The notes below the pieces were generated by a model, which worked only from the letters and a program-made list of their open reading frames with translations, was not told the origin of the DNA and searched no databases. The position numbers were made by a program, and so were the translations under genes. Source: Pedobacter insulae (GTDB lineage Bacteria; Bacteroidota; Bacteroidia; Sphingobacteriales; Sphingobacteriaceae). From it: 64,000 nt of DNA. The stretch lies in the NCBI RefSeq assembly GCF_900113525.1, contig NZ_FOPP01000001.1, positions 434,001-498,000 on the forward strand. The letters are read 5' to 3'. Positions 33,903-40,883 of this stretch are shown here, in pieces (positions within the stretch are counted from its first letter, which is position 1; each line of letters starts with the position of its first letter).

Positions 33903-34378
33903 TATCTCATTAAACGATTGAAACATAAAAAACGCTACAACTATTTTGAAATATTTTTTGTTAAGAAAAATTACCTGCCTAACTGGTAGGACAGGTAACT
34001 AACACCAAATTTTTTATAGGTAGATAGGTGTGATTATTATAGCTTATGAAGAATAGACCTGCAGAACTCAATCTTGAGTTGAATGGAAGTTAAAAAATCC
34101 TTAATTTTCTTAAAATGTCTATTCATTGCTGTATTTTCCTTGCTTCTTAATTAATTAAAAACAAATAGTTTCTCGTCATTTATCTTGAAACAAATTTGCA
34201 GACTGTTTTGAGATTTTTTATTGTGGTAATAACGAAATTTATACTGGTGTATTAACGGTAAATTTTACCGTTGTTTAACGGATATAGAAATGAGGTTTTA
34301 ACGACGCTTTTTTCAATGGAGGATAGTTTCTTTGTAAAGTAAAAAGTATATTTAATTAAATTAATCGAAAATAAACTC
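33903..34378. other. Long gene-free region before the sensory cassette
   Basis: No coding frame can be supported here. The region includes a bulged inverted repeat at 33971-33998, several stretches of T- and A-rich sequence, and GTTTTAACG- and TTAACGG-like words at 34250-34305. The promoter of the lipoprotein gene at 34379 should be within the last 100 bases, but I do not find a full TAnnTTTG match. A small RNA is possible but not shown. Confidence 0.4.
33971..33998. repeat. Bulged inverted repeat (11-bp stem)
   Basis: TTACCTGCCTA at 33971-33981 pairs with TAGG and CAGGTAA at 33987-33998, with one bulged A and a five-base loop. There is no T-run. It may be a dispersed repeat element or an RNA structure. 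Confidence 0.45.
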
Positions 34379-35053
34379 ATGGAAAAGAAATACTTAGTTT
34401 TAATAATAGGCATTTTACTGTCTGCGTTTGGAATCTATTCATGTAATTATCCACCGACAAAAAAGGAGAACGACACAGATACAACACATGGTGAAACATT
34501 GAAGGGTGGTAGACATGATACAGAACCAAGTAAACTTAGGATGACCTTAATTCAAGAAATGGTGGATAATTATAGGAATACGCAATTAGTTTCCATTGAA
34601 GATGCACCCAGAAATGGTGTAAAAGGTGATTCGCATTCTATTTTATTTGATCTTGATACCTTAAAGAAATTTATAAGTGATATTGAAAAGGGTGTAAAAC
34701 AAGTTCAGCCTAATGCTAACCCGAAACTTGCTATAAGAATGTATTATGCTGCCTATCCTTTAGCCTCAAAGTGGGGAGAGCCGGGTTACGAAAATTTAAG
34801 AGATTTGCTTGGTGAGGAAATAACGAAACAATATGAACGAAAGCACACTTTAATTATGATCCCTGTAATTAAGAATAAAAAGGGCGTTTTCGCAGACTTT
34901 AATCCCTTCGATAAAAATACCTATCAAGGTTTTCCAAAAAGGCTGAAAACGGGGATGCAACTTTTTAGAGTTTCTACCGATACAACTGAAGTAATGGGTT
35001 TAAATCATGGGCAACTTATTCCACCAAAAAGCATTGAAGGGGAAGCCTTTTAA
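34379..35053 (+). CDS. Lipoprotein of unknown function, first gene of sensory cassette
   Basis: The 224-residue protein has a lipoprotein signal with Cys at about residue 22 (FGIYSCNY). The mature part starts with a polar linker and then has a conserved-looking core: LIQEMVDNYRNTQL, HSILFDLDTLKKFISDIEKG, and LAIRMYYAAYP (about 120-131). I recall Bacteroidota proteins with this FDLDxLKxFIxxxE and IRxYxxAYP pattern, but no known function. The next gene begins five bases after the stop. It may be the extracytoplasmic input of the kinase encoded two genes on. Confidence 0.75.
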   Translation: MEKKYLVLIIGILLSAFGIYSCNYPPTKKENDTDTTHGETLKGGRHDTEPSKLRMTLIQEMVDNYRNTQLVSIEDAPRNGVKGDSHSILFDLDTLKKFISDIEKGVKQVQPNANPKLAIRMYYAAYPLASKWGEPGYENLRDLLGEEITKQYERKHTLIMIPVIKNKKGVFADFNPFDKNTYQGFPKRLKTGMQLFRVSTDTTEVMGLNHGQLIPPKSIEGEAF

Positions 35054-35058
35054 AAACT

Positions 35059-35709
35059 ATGAATGATCTTCAAGTTTTACTAGCTGAAACTTTGATTTGG
35101 GTTCAACTTTTCACTGCTTTGATAGCTTTATTTTATTGGACTAAGCTAAGAAATAGTTATTGGAGATGGTTTATTGCGTACCTCTGCATTGTTTTTCTAG
35201 TAGAAGCCTTAAGTAAATGGGGTTTAAAAAGTTATCCGAATTTTAAAGTTTACCTATACGATTTTTTCGGAATACCTATTCAGTTCTTGTTTTTTTACTG
35301 GCTATATGCTGTCAAGTCGCTAAAAAGTAATAGGTTGTTTTGGATTTGCGTATTGATTTACTGCATTTCATTTTTGCCTTACTTTACTTTATTTGCAAAA
35401 CAAAATATTGTATATTCTTTAAGTTACACTGTAGGGAATGTTGTCTTAATGCTGCTTGTTTTTCTTGAAATATTGAAACAGATCAAATCAGAGAAAATAC
35501 TATTATTTAGAGAGAATTTTATGTTCTATATTAATATTGGGATTATGGTATTTTATATCGGAACGCTTCCCTTCTTCTCGTTTTATGGTTTAATTTTAAA
35601 AAACTTGAGCTTATGGACGAATTATTATATTTTTTTTATGGTCGCTAATCATATTATGTATTTATTGTTTATTTCAGCTTTTTTATGGGGGAAACCGAAT
35701 ACACATTAG
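35059..35709 (+). CDS. Multi-pass membrane protein of sensory cassette, function unknown
   Basis: The 216-residue protein has about seven hydrophobic helices filling nearly the whole length (for example LIWVQLFTALIALFYW, WFIAYLCIVFLVEAL and FLFFYWLYAV), with short basic loops. I do not recognise a named family. Its 3' end overlaps the histidine kinase gene by 25 bases, and its start is five bases after the lipoprotein gene, so it is made together with them. A receptor or transducer role between lipoprotein and kinase is a reasonable inference; no motif proves it. Confidence 0.72.
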   Translation: MNDLQVLLAETLIWVQLFTALIALFYWTKLRNSYWRWFIAYLCIVFLVEALSKWGLKSYPNFKVYLYDFFGIPIQFLFFYWLYAVKSLKSNRLFWICVLIYCISFLPYFTLFAKQNIVYSLSYTVGNVVLMLLVFLEILKQIKSEKILLFRENFMFYINIGIMVFYIGTLPFFSFYGLILKNLSLWTNYYIFFMVANHIMYLLFISAFLWGKPNTH

Positions 35710-36461
35710 TTATCATCGTTTTTAACGTTTTTTTGTTAGCGTTCATAGCTGCTGCTATTACGTTTGTGGTGCAATACAAAAATAAGAAGAGAGAAAATCA
35801 AGCTCGACTTGCCCAACAACAAATCATACATCAAAAGGAACTGCTTTCAACAGAAGTAGAAATCCAATCGCAAACAATGCAGCATATCGGTCGGGAAATA
35901 CACGACAATGTAGGACAAAAGCTAACCTTGGCAAGTTTATATACCCAACAATTGGCCTATGAAAATAAAGCTCCCGATATAAATGAAAAAATTGAAATCA
36001 TTGGCGAAATTATTAACCAATCTCTAGCAGAGTTAAGGCAGCTGTCCAAATCCTTAACAGATAATAAAGTCGAAAAAGGAAATATAAACGATCTTTTAAG
36101 GCAAGAATTTGTTAGAATAGGAGAATTAAAGAAATATAAACTTAATTTAGCTATCGCTCTTGAAGAACTAACCTTACCTTATCAAACCAAAAGCGTAATC
36201 GTAAGAGTTACCCAAGAATTTTTGCAAAATAGCATAAAGTACGCGAATTGTAAAACTTTAAGTATTTCTGCTTCTAAAGTTGAAGATCATCTTAAGATAG
36301 TATTAGCGGATGATGGTATTGGCTTTGATTTGTCGAGTGTGAAAGATAAAGGTATAGGCTTGGTAAGCATGAAAAAGAGAATTGAATTGATTGGTGGCAG
36401 TTATTTGCTGGAAAGCAAGAAAGATGAAGGTACAAGACTAACCGTACAAATTTCCTTATAA
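35685..36461 (+). CDS. Sensor histidine kinase, HisKA_3 (NarX/DesK) type
   Basis: The 258-residue protein has one N-terminal helix (about 5-27), a coiled-coil linker and a catalytic core. The phospho-accepting His is in GREIHDNVGQKLTL (about 72), and the ATP domain shows QEFLQNSIKYAN (N box), LADDGIGFD (G1) and GIGLVSMKKRIEL (G2). There is almost no extracytoplasmic part, so the signal must come from another protein, most plausibly the seven-helix protein or the lipoprotein encoded just upstream. It is followed after two bases by its response regulator gene. Confidence 0.92.
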   Translation: MGETEYTLVIIVFNVFLLAFIAAAITFVVQYKNKKRENQARLAQQQIIHQKELLSTEVEIQSQTMQHIGREIHDNVGQKLTLASLYTQQLAYENKAPDINEKIEIIGEIINQSLAELRQLSKSLTDNKVEKGNINDLLRQEFVRIGELKKYKLNLAIALEELTLPYQTKSVIVRVTQEFLQNSIKYANCKTLSISASKVEDHLKIVLADDGIGFDLSSVKDKGIGLVSMKKRIELIGGSYLLESKKDEGTRLTVQISL

Positions 36462-36463
36462 CC

Positions 36464-37108
36464 ATGAAACATAGTATCGTAATTGTAGATGACCATATTT
36501 TAATTGCCAAGGCAATAGGAAGTATTTTAGCAAATTTCAAACAATTTGAAGTGCTTTACGAATGTGAAAATGGAAAAGAATTGCAGGAAAAATGTAACCA
36601 TAAAAATAATGTGCCTCATATTGTGTTATTAGATATTAGCATGCCTATAATGGATGGTTTCGAAACTGCAAAATGGCTTAAAGAAAATCACCCGGACGTG
36701 ATTGTAATGGCATTAAGTATGCAAGATGACGAACAGAGCTTAATAAAAATGGTTAAATGCGGTGCAAAAGGTTACTTACTTAAAAATGTGCATCCTGTTG
36801 AATTAGAGAATTCGTTGAACAGCCTCATAAAAATGGGTTTTTACTATCCCGATTGGGCAGCAAACAAAGTGTTTTCGAGTATTAGCAATGGCAACACCGA
36901 GTCGGATGAAAAAATTCACTTCACTGAAAGAGAAAAGGATTTTTTGCGTTATACTGTAACAGAGATGAGTTATAAAGAAATAGCGGATCAAATGTTTTGC
37001 AGTCACCGAACAGTTGAAGCTTACAGAGACAGTTTATTCGAGAAATTAGGGTTGAAGTCTCGCGTAGGCCTTGCCGTTTATGCAATCAGGAACGGTTTTG
37101 ATAGTTAG
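36464..37108 (+). CDS. LuxR/NarL-family response regulator
   Basis: The 214-residue protein has a receiver domain with the acidic pair DDH, the phospho-Asp in VLLDISMPIMDGFE (about 58) and Lys in GAKGYLLKN (about 108). It is followed by a LuxR-type helix-turn-helix: FTEREKDFLRYTVTEMSYKEIA, HRTVEAYRDSLFEKLGLKSR. It is the likely partner of the preceding HisKA_3 kinase and binds DNA when phosphorylated. Target genes are unknown; its own operon or the 559-base upstream gap are possible sites. Confidence 0.93.
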   Translation: MKHSIVIVDDHILIAKAIGSILANFKQFEVLYECENGKELQEKCNHKNNVPHIVLLDISMPIMDGFETAKWLKENHPDVIVMALSMQDDEQSLIKMVKCGAKGYLLKNVHPVELENSLNSLIKMGFYYPDWAANKVFSSISNGNTESDEKIHFTEREKDFLRYTVTEMSYKEIADQMFCSHRTVEAYRDSLFEKLGLKSRVGLAVYAIRNGFDS

Positions 37109-39230: not shown

Positions 39231-40883
39231 ATGAAACTCCAACCATTAAGTCACCTTTTAGTATGTATAATCGTATTGTTCGGTATCGGATGCAAAAAAA
39301 GTGATACCCTAGCGCATTCATCAGAAAATTCTACCGAAGAAGGAGCAACCAATATCAAAAAAACTAGCAAGACTGGCATAGCAGCCACAGAAAATGCCGC
39401 CCCATCACAGCATCTTTTTTTTACCTTTCCTACTGACGCAATTCTTAAAATGCACAAAATTAAGGTGACGCAATCAGCAAACTCTTCCTATTTTTCGGTT
39501 CATAATTATACAGGGGGGTACGCGGGCATTCAACAGACTTCGAGTACTGCTTATGGCACTCCCAATATCCTTATATCTTCGTTATGGGATCCGAATACAG
39601 CTGGAAACATACTTGCAACGGCTTCCTATGTTGCTCCCACTACGGTAAGTAGCAGGTTTGGTGGCGAAGGAGATGGTGCAAAAACTATCAATCCGTATAA
39701 TTGGTCGCTTAATGTATGGTATAATGTGGTATTGAGATCGTGGAAGGCGAATAACAAGTTGTATATCGCAACCTTTATCCAAAACCTGTCCAATAATAAT
39801 TGGTTTCACACCTCTACGTTAACTATTCCTGAGCGTACTACTTTCTTAGGGAAAAATAATGATGCATTTTTAGAAAATTGGGAAGGATTTCAATATGACG
39901 GAAGCTACGAAAGAAAAGCGTTTTTTAAGGATTGTTGGAATTTAACTACTGGTAACCAATGGGAAAAACATACCTCAAGAAGTTTTAGTGCTAATGCCAA
40001 TGATGCTTATCGAAATGGGATCTATGATAGAGCCTTTAATGCAGGATATGACGCAAATGAAGATGCTTATTTTATGGAGCACGGTGGCAATGTTGTACCC
40101 AGTGCAGCCTTTGGGCAAGGGCGCACACTTAATTTGCCTGTTCAAACCAACCAAGGAAGTGCCCCCATTATTACCACGGGTAGTATCACATCAGTTTCAG
40201 CGAACTACAGTAATGGTTCGGTTGCAGTAAGCTGGATCATTAATCAAACTAAGAGCCCACAATTCTCCTCTAAAGTGGAGATTTTAAACTCGTCGGGCAC
40301 TGTAATCCATACCGCTAATGACAATTTACCGGAGAAAAGGACTACAAATATTCCTATTTCCTTGTCGACCGGTAATTATACGGCAAGGGTAACTATTACC
40401 GACATTTTTAACCAGGTCTCGTCAGCTTTTACCAGTGCTTTCGTGGCAAGTACGAATGCCATCACTACTGGAACATATAGATTAGTTAACGCAAATACTG
40501 GAAAATCTTTAGATAACTTGGGTGTTTCAACAAACGGATCGGGGATAGGGATATATTCAACTAATAGTGGAAACAATCAAAAATGGGTTATTACGCTCAA
40601 TGGGGGTTATTATAGGATTAGCTGTGTAAGTGCGCCAGGAAAATCATTAGATAGTGGTAATAACACAGCCGATGGCTCAGCAGTTATTCAATATTCAGAT
40701 AATACCGGGACTAATCAGCAATGGTCGTTGGTTTCAACAGGGGATGGATATTACTATATCATTAACCGCACAAATGGTAAATATTTAGATTCAGTAAATG
40801 GCACAACAAATGGATCACTTGTTAAATTCTGGTCATTATCTGCTGGTAGTACTAATCAAAAATGGTCTGTTATAGCGCTCTAA
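39231..40883 (+). CDS. Surface lipoprotein with DUF3472 and ricin-B-type lectin domains
   Basis: The 550-residue protein has a lipoprotein signal with Cys at about residue 21 (FGIGCKKS). Residues about 65-290 fit DUF3472 (SSYFSVHNYTGGYAGIQQ, ILISSLWDP, FGGEGDGAKT, RSWKANNKLYIATF, FLENWEGFQYDGSY). A linker of Fn3-like or DUF5077-like character follows, and the last 140 residues are a beta-trefoil lectin with repeated GKSLDNLG, GKSLDSGN and GKYLDSVN plus NQKW motifs. This is a glycan-binding outer-membrane lipoprotein, probably used to handle a polysaccharide. The pair of LacI-like operators upstream indicates regulation by a sugar-sensing repressor. Confidence 0.87.
   Translation: MKLQPLSHLLVCIIVLFGIGCKKSDTLAHSSENSTEEGATNIKKTSKTGIAATENAAPSQHLFFTFPTDAILKMHKIKVTQSANSSYFSVHNYTGGYAGIQQTSSTAYGTPNILISSLWDPNTAGNILATASYVAPTTVSSRFGGEGDGAKTINPYNWSLNVWYNVVLRSWKANNKLYIATFIQNLSNNNWFHTSTLTIPERTTFLGKNNDAFLENWEGFQYDGSYERKAFFKDCWNLTTGNQWEKHTSRSFSANANDAYRNGIYDRAFNAGYDANEDAYFMEHGGNVVPSAAFGQGRTLNLPVQTNQGSAPIITTGSITSVSANYSNGSVAVSWIINQTKSPQFSSKVEILNSSGTVIHTANDNLPEKRTTNIPISLSTGNYTARVTITDIFNQVSSAFTSAFVASTNAITTGTYRLVNANTGKSLDNLGVSTNGSGIGIYSTNSGNNQKWVITLNGGYYRISCVSAPGKSLDSGNNTADGSAVIQYSDNTGTNQQWSLVSTGDGYYYIINRTNGKYLDSVNGTTNGSLVKFWSLSAGSTNQKWSVIAL

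Follow-up and report, generated by a model that had tools for sequence, protein, structure and literature searches.

In the UhpC-UhpB-UhpA system a separate polytopic membrane protein, the transporter-like UhpC, feeds a HisKA_3 kinase and a LuxR-type regulator, and LiaF-LiaS-LiaR combines a membrane protein with a short kinase and a LuxR-type regulator. Here we compare these and other described systems with a four-gene cassette of Pedobacter insulae, found in a stretch of 64,000 nucleotides (contig NZ_FOPP01000001.1, positions 434,001 to 498,000; hereafter the window). The cassette (34379-37108) consists of four open reading frames (ORFs) on the plus strand: a first gene named X, a gene for a seven-helix membrane protein (TM), a histidine kinase gene and a response regulator gene, on one strand and in the order that defines this module. 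The cassette represents a new variant of the two-component system, and a widespread one: two families without a Pfam or NCBIfam name recur in it together with a kinase and a regulator.

In the kinase, Pfam places HisKA_3 at residues 67-125 (E 2.7e-10, 41.1 bits against a cut-off of 24) and HATPase_c at residues 172-256 (E 8.5e-11, 42.7 bits against 26.4); in the regulator it finds Response_reg (E 1.3e-23, 83.7 bits against 30.2) and GerE (E 2e-16, 59.8 bits against 23.5). The pair is a two-component system of the HisKA_3/LuxR-type branch. Before residue 67 the kinase has one hydrophobic stretch and a linker, and no recognised sensing domain is detected with Pfam, in agreement with the first-pass annotation, which had described a kinase with almost no sensing domain of its own. 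The best NCBIfam match of the kinase is UhpB (78.8 bits, far under the cut-off of 408), and LiaS is matched as well (68.3 bits, the cut-off of 450 not being reached). UhpABC, which likewise couples a separate membrane protein to such a kinase and regulator, has no X, and LiaF belongs to a family other than TM.

The Sae system of Staphylococcus aureus (SaePQRS) has an OmpR-type regulator, SaeR, whereas the regulator here is of the GerE/LuxR type; moreover, its gene order differs and X is usually no lipoprotein. Like the cassette, SaePQRS is an operon of four genes, the first two encoding a small anchored protein and a membrane protein, SaeP and SaeQ, which the available part of PMC5083920 describes as being without homology to proteins of known function, and it serves a kinase, SaeS, with a very small sensor part (available part of PMC4388633). 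SaeQ has four predicted helices (same part of PMC5083920), whereas TM has seven. In family searches X has no Pfam or NCBIfam match. In QseG-QseE-QseF the accessory lipoprotein QseG activates the kinase via its C-terminal domain and binds it directly, and the available part of PMC12691602 reports no seven-helix protein as part of that system. No anti-phage defence family of PADLOC was matched at E<=0.01 by any of the four proteins. A description of such a cassette was not found in the titles and abstract openings of the open-licence literature, outside of which most subscription papers lie.

Recurrence of the four genes in Bacteroidota

Within the family, 301 genomes were covered; 21 of them, which belong to a single genus, have X, and 28 have TM. 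All 20 X-bearing Pedobacter relatives (the genome of the window excluded) have X, TM, kinase and regulator in this order, and it is in Pedobacter that the nearest relatives of the window locus are found. A pattern scan of 84,980 species yielded 111 relatives of X, of which the best 80 were kept. These 80 are all Bacteroidota and include Pedobacter, Chryseobacterium, Flavobacterium, Kordia, other Flavobacteriaceae, Weeksellaceae and Bacteroidetes; the full four-gene set is present at 79 of these best 80 of 111 loci, and at the exception (L164) the contig ends 517 bases after the X match. At 22 more distant loci (to E 2e-4) TM and the kinase follow X in 22 of 22 and the regulator in 21. The three sets share members: 16 X from the first and 3 from the last have an identical counterpart in the second.

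By a first profile search, from which the 22 more distant loci were taken, X was detected in 22 of 395 Bacteroidota genomes. Wider X and TM profiles, also run over Bacteroidota, gave at least 58 X matches in at least 42 of the 395 genomes and at least 123 TM matches in at least 66 genomes and at least 41 of 170 sampled genera, these counts being lower bounds because few first-look candidates were scored per genome (for example 7 of 47). Directly downstream of the X match lies a TM match in 57 of 58 cases; the remaining one is a weak partial match inside a frame of 602 amino acids. Of the TM matches, 68 are without X match; the gene preceding TM there is usually an ORF on the same strand that has diverged beyond the reach of the X profile. 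Such diverged upstream genes form 47 clusters, 40 of which have the same kind of C-terminal tail as X (37 of the 42 where a kinase follows).

Pooling gave 197 TM genes and, with these, 185 upstream genes (166 distinct) in 85 clusters at 50% identity. Left out were 7 TM genes with an opposite-strand upstream ORF, 4 preceded by another TM and 1 by a regulator; loci in which TM was not called by the gene finder were not used (L077, L078, L079, L164, L282, L311, L317 and L329). A kinase lies within three genes after TM in 79 of the 85 clusters, and a regulator within four in 71. Where X is profile-positive, 135 of 137 systems have TM overlapping the kinase gene, an approximate count since starts are those of the longest ORF and some loci enter twice; judged from these frames, the overlap is more than chance.

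The recurrent four-gene linkage is real and strongly supported. The first-pass annotation had proposed a family across Bacteroidota described by position, which is borne out and turns out wider than guessed. It had also named the opposite pattern, homologues found mostly without kinase and regulator; the loci are instead complete in 20/20, 79/80 and 21/22 cases.

A number of loci depart from the simple arrangement. At L055 (genome G215) TM, between X and kinase, is in two pieces with internal stop codons, and this copy looks broken. L194:3304-7302 has a kinase without a regulator directly after it and another kinase-regulator pair one gene later. Two X genes per cassette are seen at L110, L111, L197, L198 and L203; at L110 and L111 one is lipoprotein-like and the other helix-anchored, and at L111 they are on opposite strands. 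Two or three TM genes stand close together at L276, L278, L279, L283 and L312. The genome of the window itself holds a second, diverged cassette (G000:C19, L267:6470-9083), in which an X of 174 amino acids with a CPPDC tail is followed by TM, kinase and regulator.

Properties of TM and X

Window X and TM match no Pfam family at E<=1 and no NCBIfam family at E<=0.1. Searching Pfam with 51 TM members gave scattered weak matches only (best E 0.036); for 58 X members the weak matches were equally scattered (best DUF5035, in two members, E 0.00085), and from 51 diverged X one member matched (E 0.0055). The X relative L196 has two weak NCBIfam matches (best 17.7 of 250 bits), and profiles A5 and A6 found no convincing sequence relative in the PDB (best E 0.56 and 0.068).

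The AlphaFold2 model of TM has seven helices, with a mean predicted local distance difference test score (pLDDT) of 89.9. Over 90 non-redundant sequences, positive charges average 2.98, 2.98, 2.09 and 1.91 in loops 1, 3 and 5 and the C-terminus, whereas the opposite side has averages of 0.11-1.21; by the positive-inside rule TM is therefore predicted to have its N-terminus outside and its C-terminus inside. Conservation peaks where helix 6 begins on the cytoplasmic side (G161, W/Y157 and F156). G protein-coupled receptors (GPCRs) and rhodopsins share the seven helices and the outside N-terminus, but Foldseek gave only E 0.12 or worse. Structural matches go up to Z 13.2 (to LYCHOS/GPR155, with a root mean square deviation of 4.0 over 199 residues), though values of about Z 13 may also be obtained between helical bundles that share no kinship. 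The likeness to these folds may thus be only a shared arrangement.

For X the model is moderate (pLDDT 75.5, predicted template modelling score 0.64). There is no Foldseek match at E<=0.001 and the best VIA-align Z is 2.4; because the model is only moderate, we make no claim of a new fold. The first-pass annotation had pointed to a conserved-looking core of FDLDxLKxFIxxxE and IRxYxxAYP. The corresponding motifs, FDLDTLKKFISDIE and IRMYYAAYP, are indeed present in window X, but this core characterises the Pedobacter-Chryseobacterium-Flavobacterium branch; in more diverged X it is the C-terminal tail and a G-x-R-x-Y strand that persist.

Window X ends in ..NHGQLIPPKSIEGEAF, and its NHGQLIPP segment makes it a member of the module by its C-terminal PP/CPxxC tail. 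Elsewhere the tail takes a CPPxC form, or forms such as NFGTMGHPP, YDFTKACPPEC and DMGSLYP, and several X terminate exactly at ..LYP, ..LWP, ..LRP or ..LKP. N209, P215 and P216 are invariant among the 58 closer X sequences, and residues 212-224 are modelled at pLDDT < 50. With the tail defined as PP, CPxxC or a terminal [LI][YWKRF]P within the last 45 residues, 77 of 85 X clusters have it, compared with 58 of 1176 control ORFs from the same loci (from which only exact duplicates had been removed, spurious ORFs being included); PP in the middle of X is seen in 6 of 85. In new genomes the fixed pattern was present in 13 of 13 same-strand genes upstream of a TM match. For this fresh set 22 of 119 genomes matched, of which 9 had already been seen, leaving 13 new genomes with 14 loci; L331 was left out of the count since an opposite-strand ORF adjoins TM there, as was one further match (G547 C19). 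Farther upstream at L331 lies a same-strand ORF of 107 amino acids with a CPTQC tail at its end. On these alignments and counts, the tail is the most portable feature of X.

The tail sits on proteins of several predicted locations. In window X, C22 stands after the hydrophobic stretch, and the first-pass annotation had called the protein a lipoprotein. As a family trait this label does not hold: C22 is found in 1 of 14 close sequences (alignment A1), and a cysteine occupies its column in 2 of 58 (alignment A3, with 35 rows gapped there). Other Pedobacter X retain the hydrophobic helix without C22. In most members of an 18-member, more distant Pedobacter branch the positive charges are C-terminal to the helix, which by the positive-inside rule suggests a predicted cytoplasmic body. 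Nearly all Chryseobacterium X listed are without export signal; since the longest ORF was taken, a signal was not lost through a late ATG, GTG or TTG start. By a crude localisation rule the 85 clusters comprise 56 with no export signal, 20 with a helix and 9 labelled as lipoproteins. The rule errs both ways: among the latter at least L054 and L293 resemble plain helices, while L195, L196 and L270 resemble missed lipoproteins. A convincing lipobox is seen in some relatives (L110, L196 and L198, for instance). From these predictions, being a lipoprotein is not a family property of X: a lipobox is found in a minority and a membrane anchor in others.

Possible roles of X and TM

Of the four parts X evolves fastest: mean tree distances are 4.31 for X, 3.27 for TM, 2.67 for the kinase and 1.67 for the regulator (computed on 41 non-redundant systems out of 132 that are complete and have a profile-positive X). 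A tail that is conserved yet flexible, on a variable body, suggests a docking element. It is plausible that the signal input comes from X and TM, as the first-pass annotation had supposed. More specifically, we would give roughly an even chance to a reading in which TM is the transducer for the near-sensorless kinase, X is its partner docking by the tail, and the four genes are one signalling unit. The computations themselves establish gene order, co-occurrence, gene overlap, domain content, the predicted seven-helix topology and the conservation of the tail; the contacts are proposed. The cassette would then be a two-component system with two extra parts. TM would be the membrane receptor or transducer that the kinase itself is without, and would act via the single helix and linker of the kinase; X would be TM's cognate partner, with specificity residing in the fast-evolving body and contact with TM made by the tail (NHGQLIPP here). 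If X changed, whether by binding a ligand, in abundance or through cleavage, TM would be altered in turn, then kinase phosphorylation and finally the LuxR-type regulator, whose own operon may be among its targets.

In a bolder version, which we regard as tentative and clearly less probable, the hypervariable X would be a tethered ligand, acting via its tail, for a split-off seven-helix receptor of GPCR-like topology that drives a separate kinase, and this would be a general class in Bacteroidota. Because some genomes have several TM genes (8 TM matches in G547), X would be the exchangeable specificity part. If true, such a tail-receptor pair would be a widespread means of giving two-component systems an exchangeable input protein, and would offer a direct handle on what these regulators respond to.

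A number of observations weigh against docking of X on TM. The main point left unexplained is that the same tail occurs at several predicted locations: similar-tailed X include predicted lipoproteins (outside) as well as signal-less proteins (inside), such as L196 and L199-L202, so that one docking side cannot serve all X unless some are exported by another route. The tail pattern is missing in 8 of 85 clusters and was written after viewing these first 85, for which reason it was kept fixed and another order was searched; only that 13/13 test is fresh, and two of its members (L332 and L337) are close relatives. A few genes called X (for example L291, L297_3 and L315) may not be related to it. 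In 193 loci no two of the four genes were found fused, an arrangement that would have argued for contact.

Tree-distance coupling was considered and set aside as weak, as it gives a suggestive chain that is not significant against simulation. Partial correlations of log distances are 0.49 for X-TM, 0.38 for TM-kinase and 0.63 for kinase-regulator, with 0.09-0.19 for other pairs. For X-TM, however, the simulated 97.5% bound of 0.51 (independent rates on a shared tree, at noise levels of our own choosing) exceeds the observed 0.40-0.49, and a rank version lifts the X-regulator correlation to 0.34. Gene order alone could mimic the correlation chain.

It might be argued that X and TM are auxiliary proteins that set the kinase/phosphatase balance and damp their own operon, as SaeP and SaeQ do, and are not the sensor. 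We consider this unlikely, though it has several points in its favour: X and TM open the operon, as do saeP and saeQ; a palindrome before X would suit autoregulation; and the available part of PMC5083920 describes the lipoprotein SaeP and the membrane protein SaeQ as forming a complex with SaeS and inducing its phosphatase activity. Against this, the helix numbers of SaeQ and TM differ, and SaeS activation needs no SaePQ (same part of PMC5083920), whereas the kinase here is without a recognised input domain. Moreover, X changes more than a constant feedback part needs, and the palindrome is not retained in L105.

Somewhat less probable still is a self-made ligand, X being a precursor from which a protease frees a C-terminal peptide to be sensed by TM and kinase. 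A variable body with a conserved C-terminal tail, and the X that end exactly at ..LYP, ..LWP, ..LRP or ..LKP, would fit such a precursor, as would the S8-type peptidase gene that X has as a divergent neighbour in 15 of the 20 Pedobacter relatives and at two Chryseobacterium loci (L157 and L176). On the other hand, within branches the body of X, too, is conserved, an export signal is missing in most X by the crude rule, and the peptidase is beside neither the window cassette nor most others.

That X is an exported lipoprotein binding an external ligand and relaying to TM, a reading along the lines of the first-pass annotation, appears improbable. C22 in the window and the lipoboxes of L110, L196 and L198 agree with export; the rarity of C22 among close sequences, the 56 of 85 clusters without signal, the signal-less Chryseobacterium X and the charges suggesting a cytoplasmic body in most of the 18 distant Pedobacter X do not. 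Finally, although kinase-regulator pairs of the HisKA_3/LuxR-type branch are common in general, an ordinary two-component system with two bystander genes is contradicted by the 57/58 linkage, the presence of TM in at least 41 genera and the downstream kinase in 79/85 clusters, and because of these counts we set it aside as a very remote prospect.

Layout in the window and neighbouring sequence

Coordinates are collected in Table 1. X and TM are separated by 5 bases (35054-35058), TM and kinase overlap by 25 bases (35685-35709, the first 25 bases of the kinase gene), and the gap between kinase and regulator is 2 bases. The four genes, the 5-base gap and the 25-base overlap had been given in the same way by the first-pass annotation and match the ORF list.

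Table 1. Features of the cassette, in window coordinates
Feature	Position	Strand	Description
Gene X	34379..35053	+	224 amino acids; N-terminal hydrophobic helix (about residues 2-23), helix-helix-strand-strand body, C-terminal tail
X tail	35003..35026	+	residues 209-216, NHGQLIPP, conserved
Gene TM	35059..35709	+	216 amino acids; seven-helix membrane protein, predicted N-out, C-in
Histidine kinase	35685..36461	+	258 amino acids; hydrophobic stretch, linker, HisKA_3, HATPase_c
Response regulator	36464..37108	+	214 amino acids; receiver domain and GerE (LuxR-type) DNA-binding domain
Palindrome AACGGTAAATTTTACCGTT	34254..34272		19 bp, 107-125 bases before X start; strand not assigned

The palindrome is perfect and is the sole match in the window at up to 3 mismatches. 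It is found with 0-2 mismatches at the same distance from X in L106, L108 and L109, and is degraded in L107 (5 mismatches) and in L105 (6 mismatches), the latter being the relative with the X closest to window X. Its half-sites occur upstream of 8 of 85 X representatives against 33 of 442 control genes; in another form they precede 10 of 85 X representatives and 19 of 442 controls, which is a modest excess. From its sequence and position the palindrome is a possible candidate for a regulator-binding site.

The S8 peptidase is without signal peptide, and Pfam Peptidase_S8 matches two such proteins at E 1.8e-43 and 2.7e-44. The assignment in the 15 Pedobacter relatives was made by active-site motifs in 14 and by size and an identical start in L057. 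As a general fifth member of the cassette it was rejected: it lies within 1.5 kb in 28 of 186 TM loci (partly redundant), and farther away in 5. An example is L058:7438-9059; many such loci also have a partner gene of 67 amino acids, and the X beside the peptidase is helix-anchored in all of them.

In the window the cassette is flanked by an OppC-type permease gene upstream and a ribonuclease HII gene downstream, neither of which adjoins the cassette in most relatives. Further along, at 39231-40883, a protein with DUF3472 and ricin-type lectin domains is encoded.

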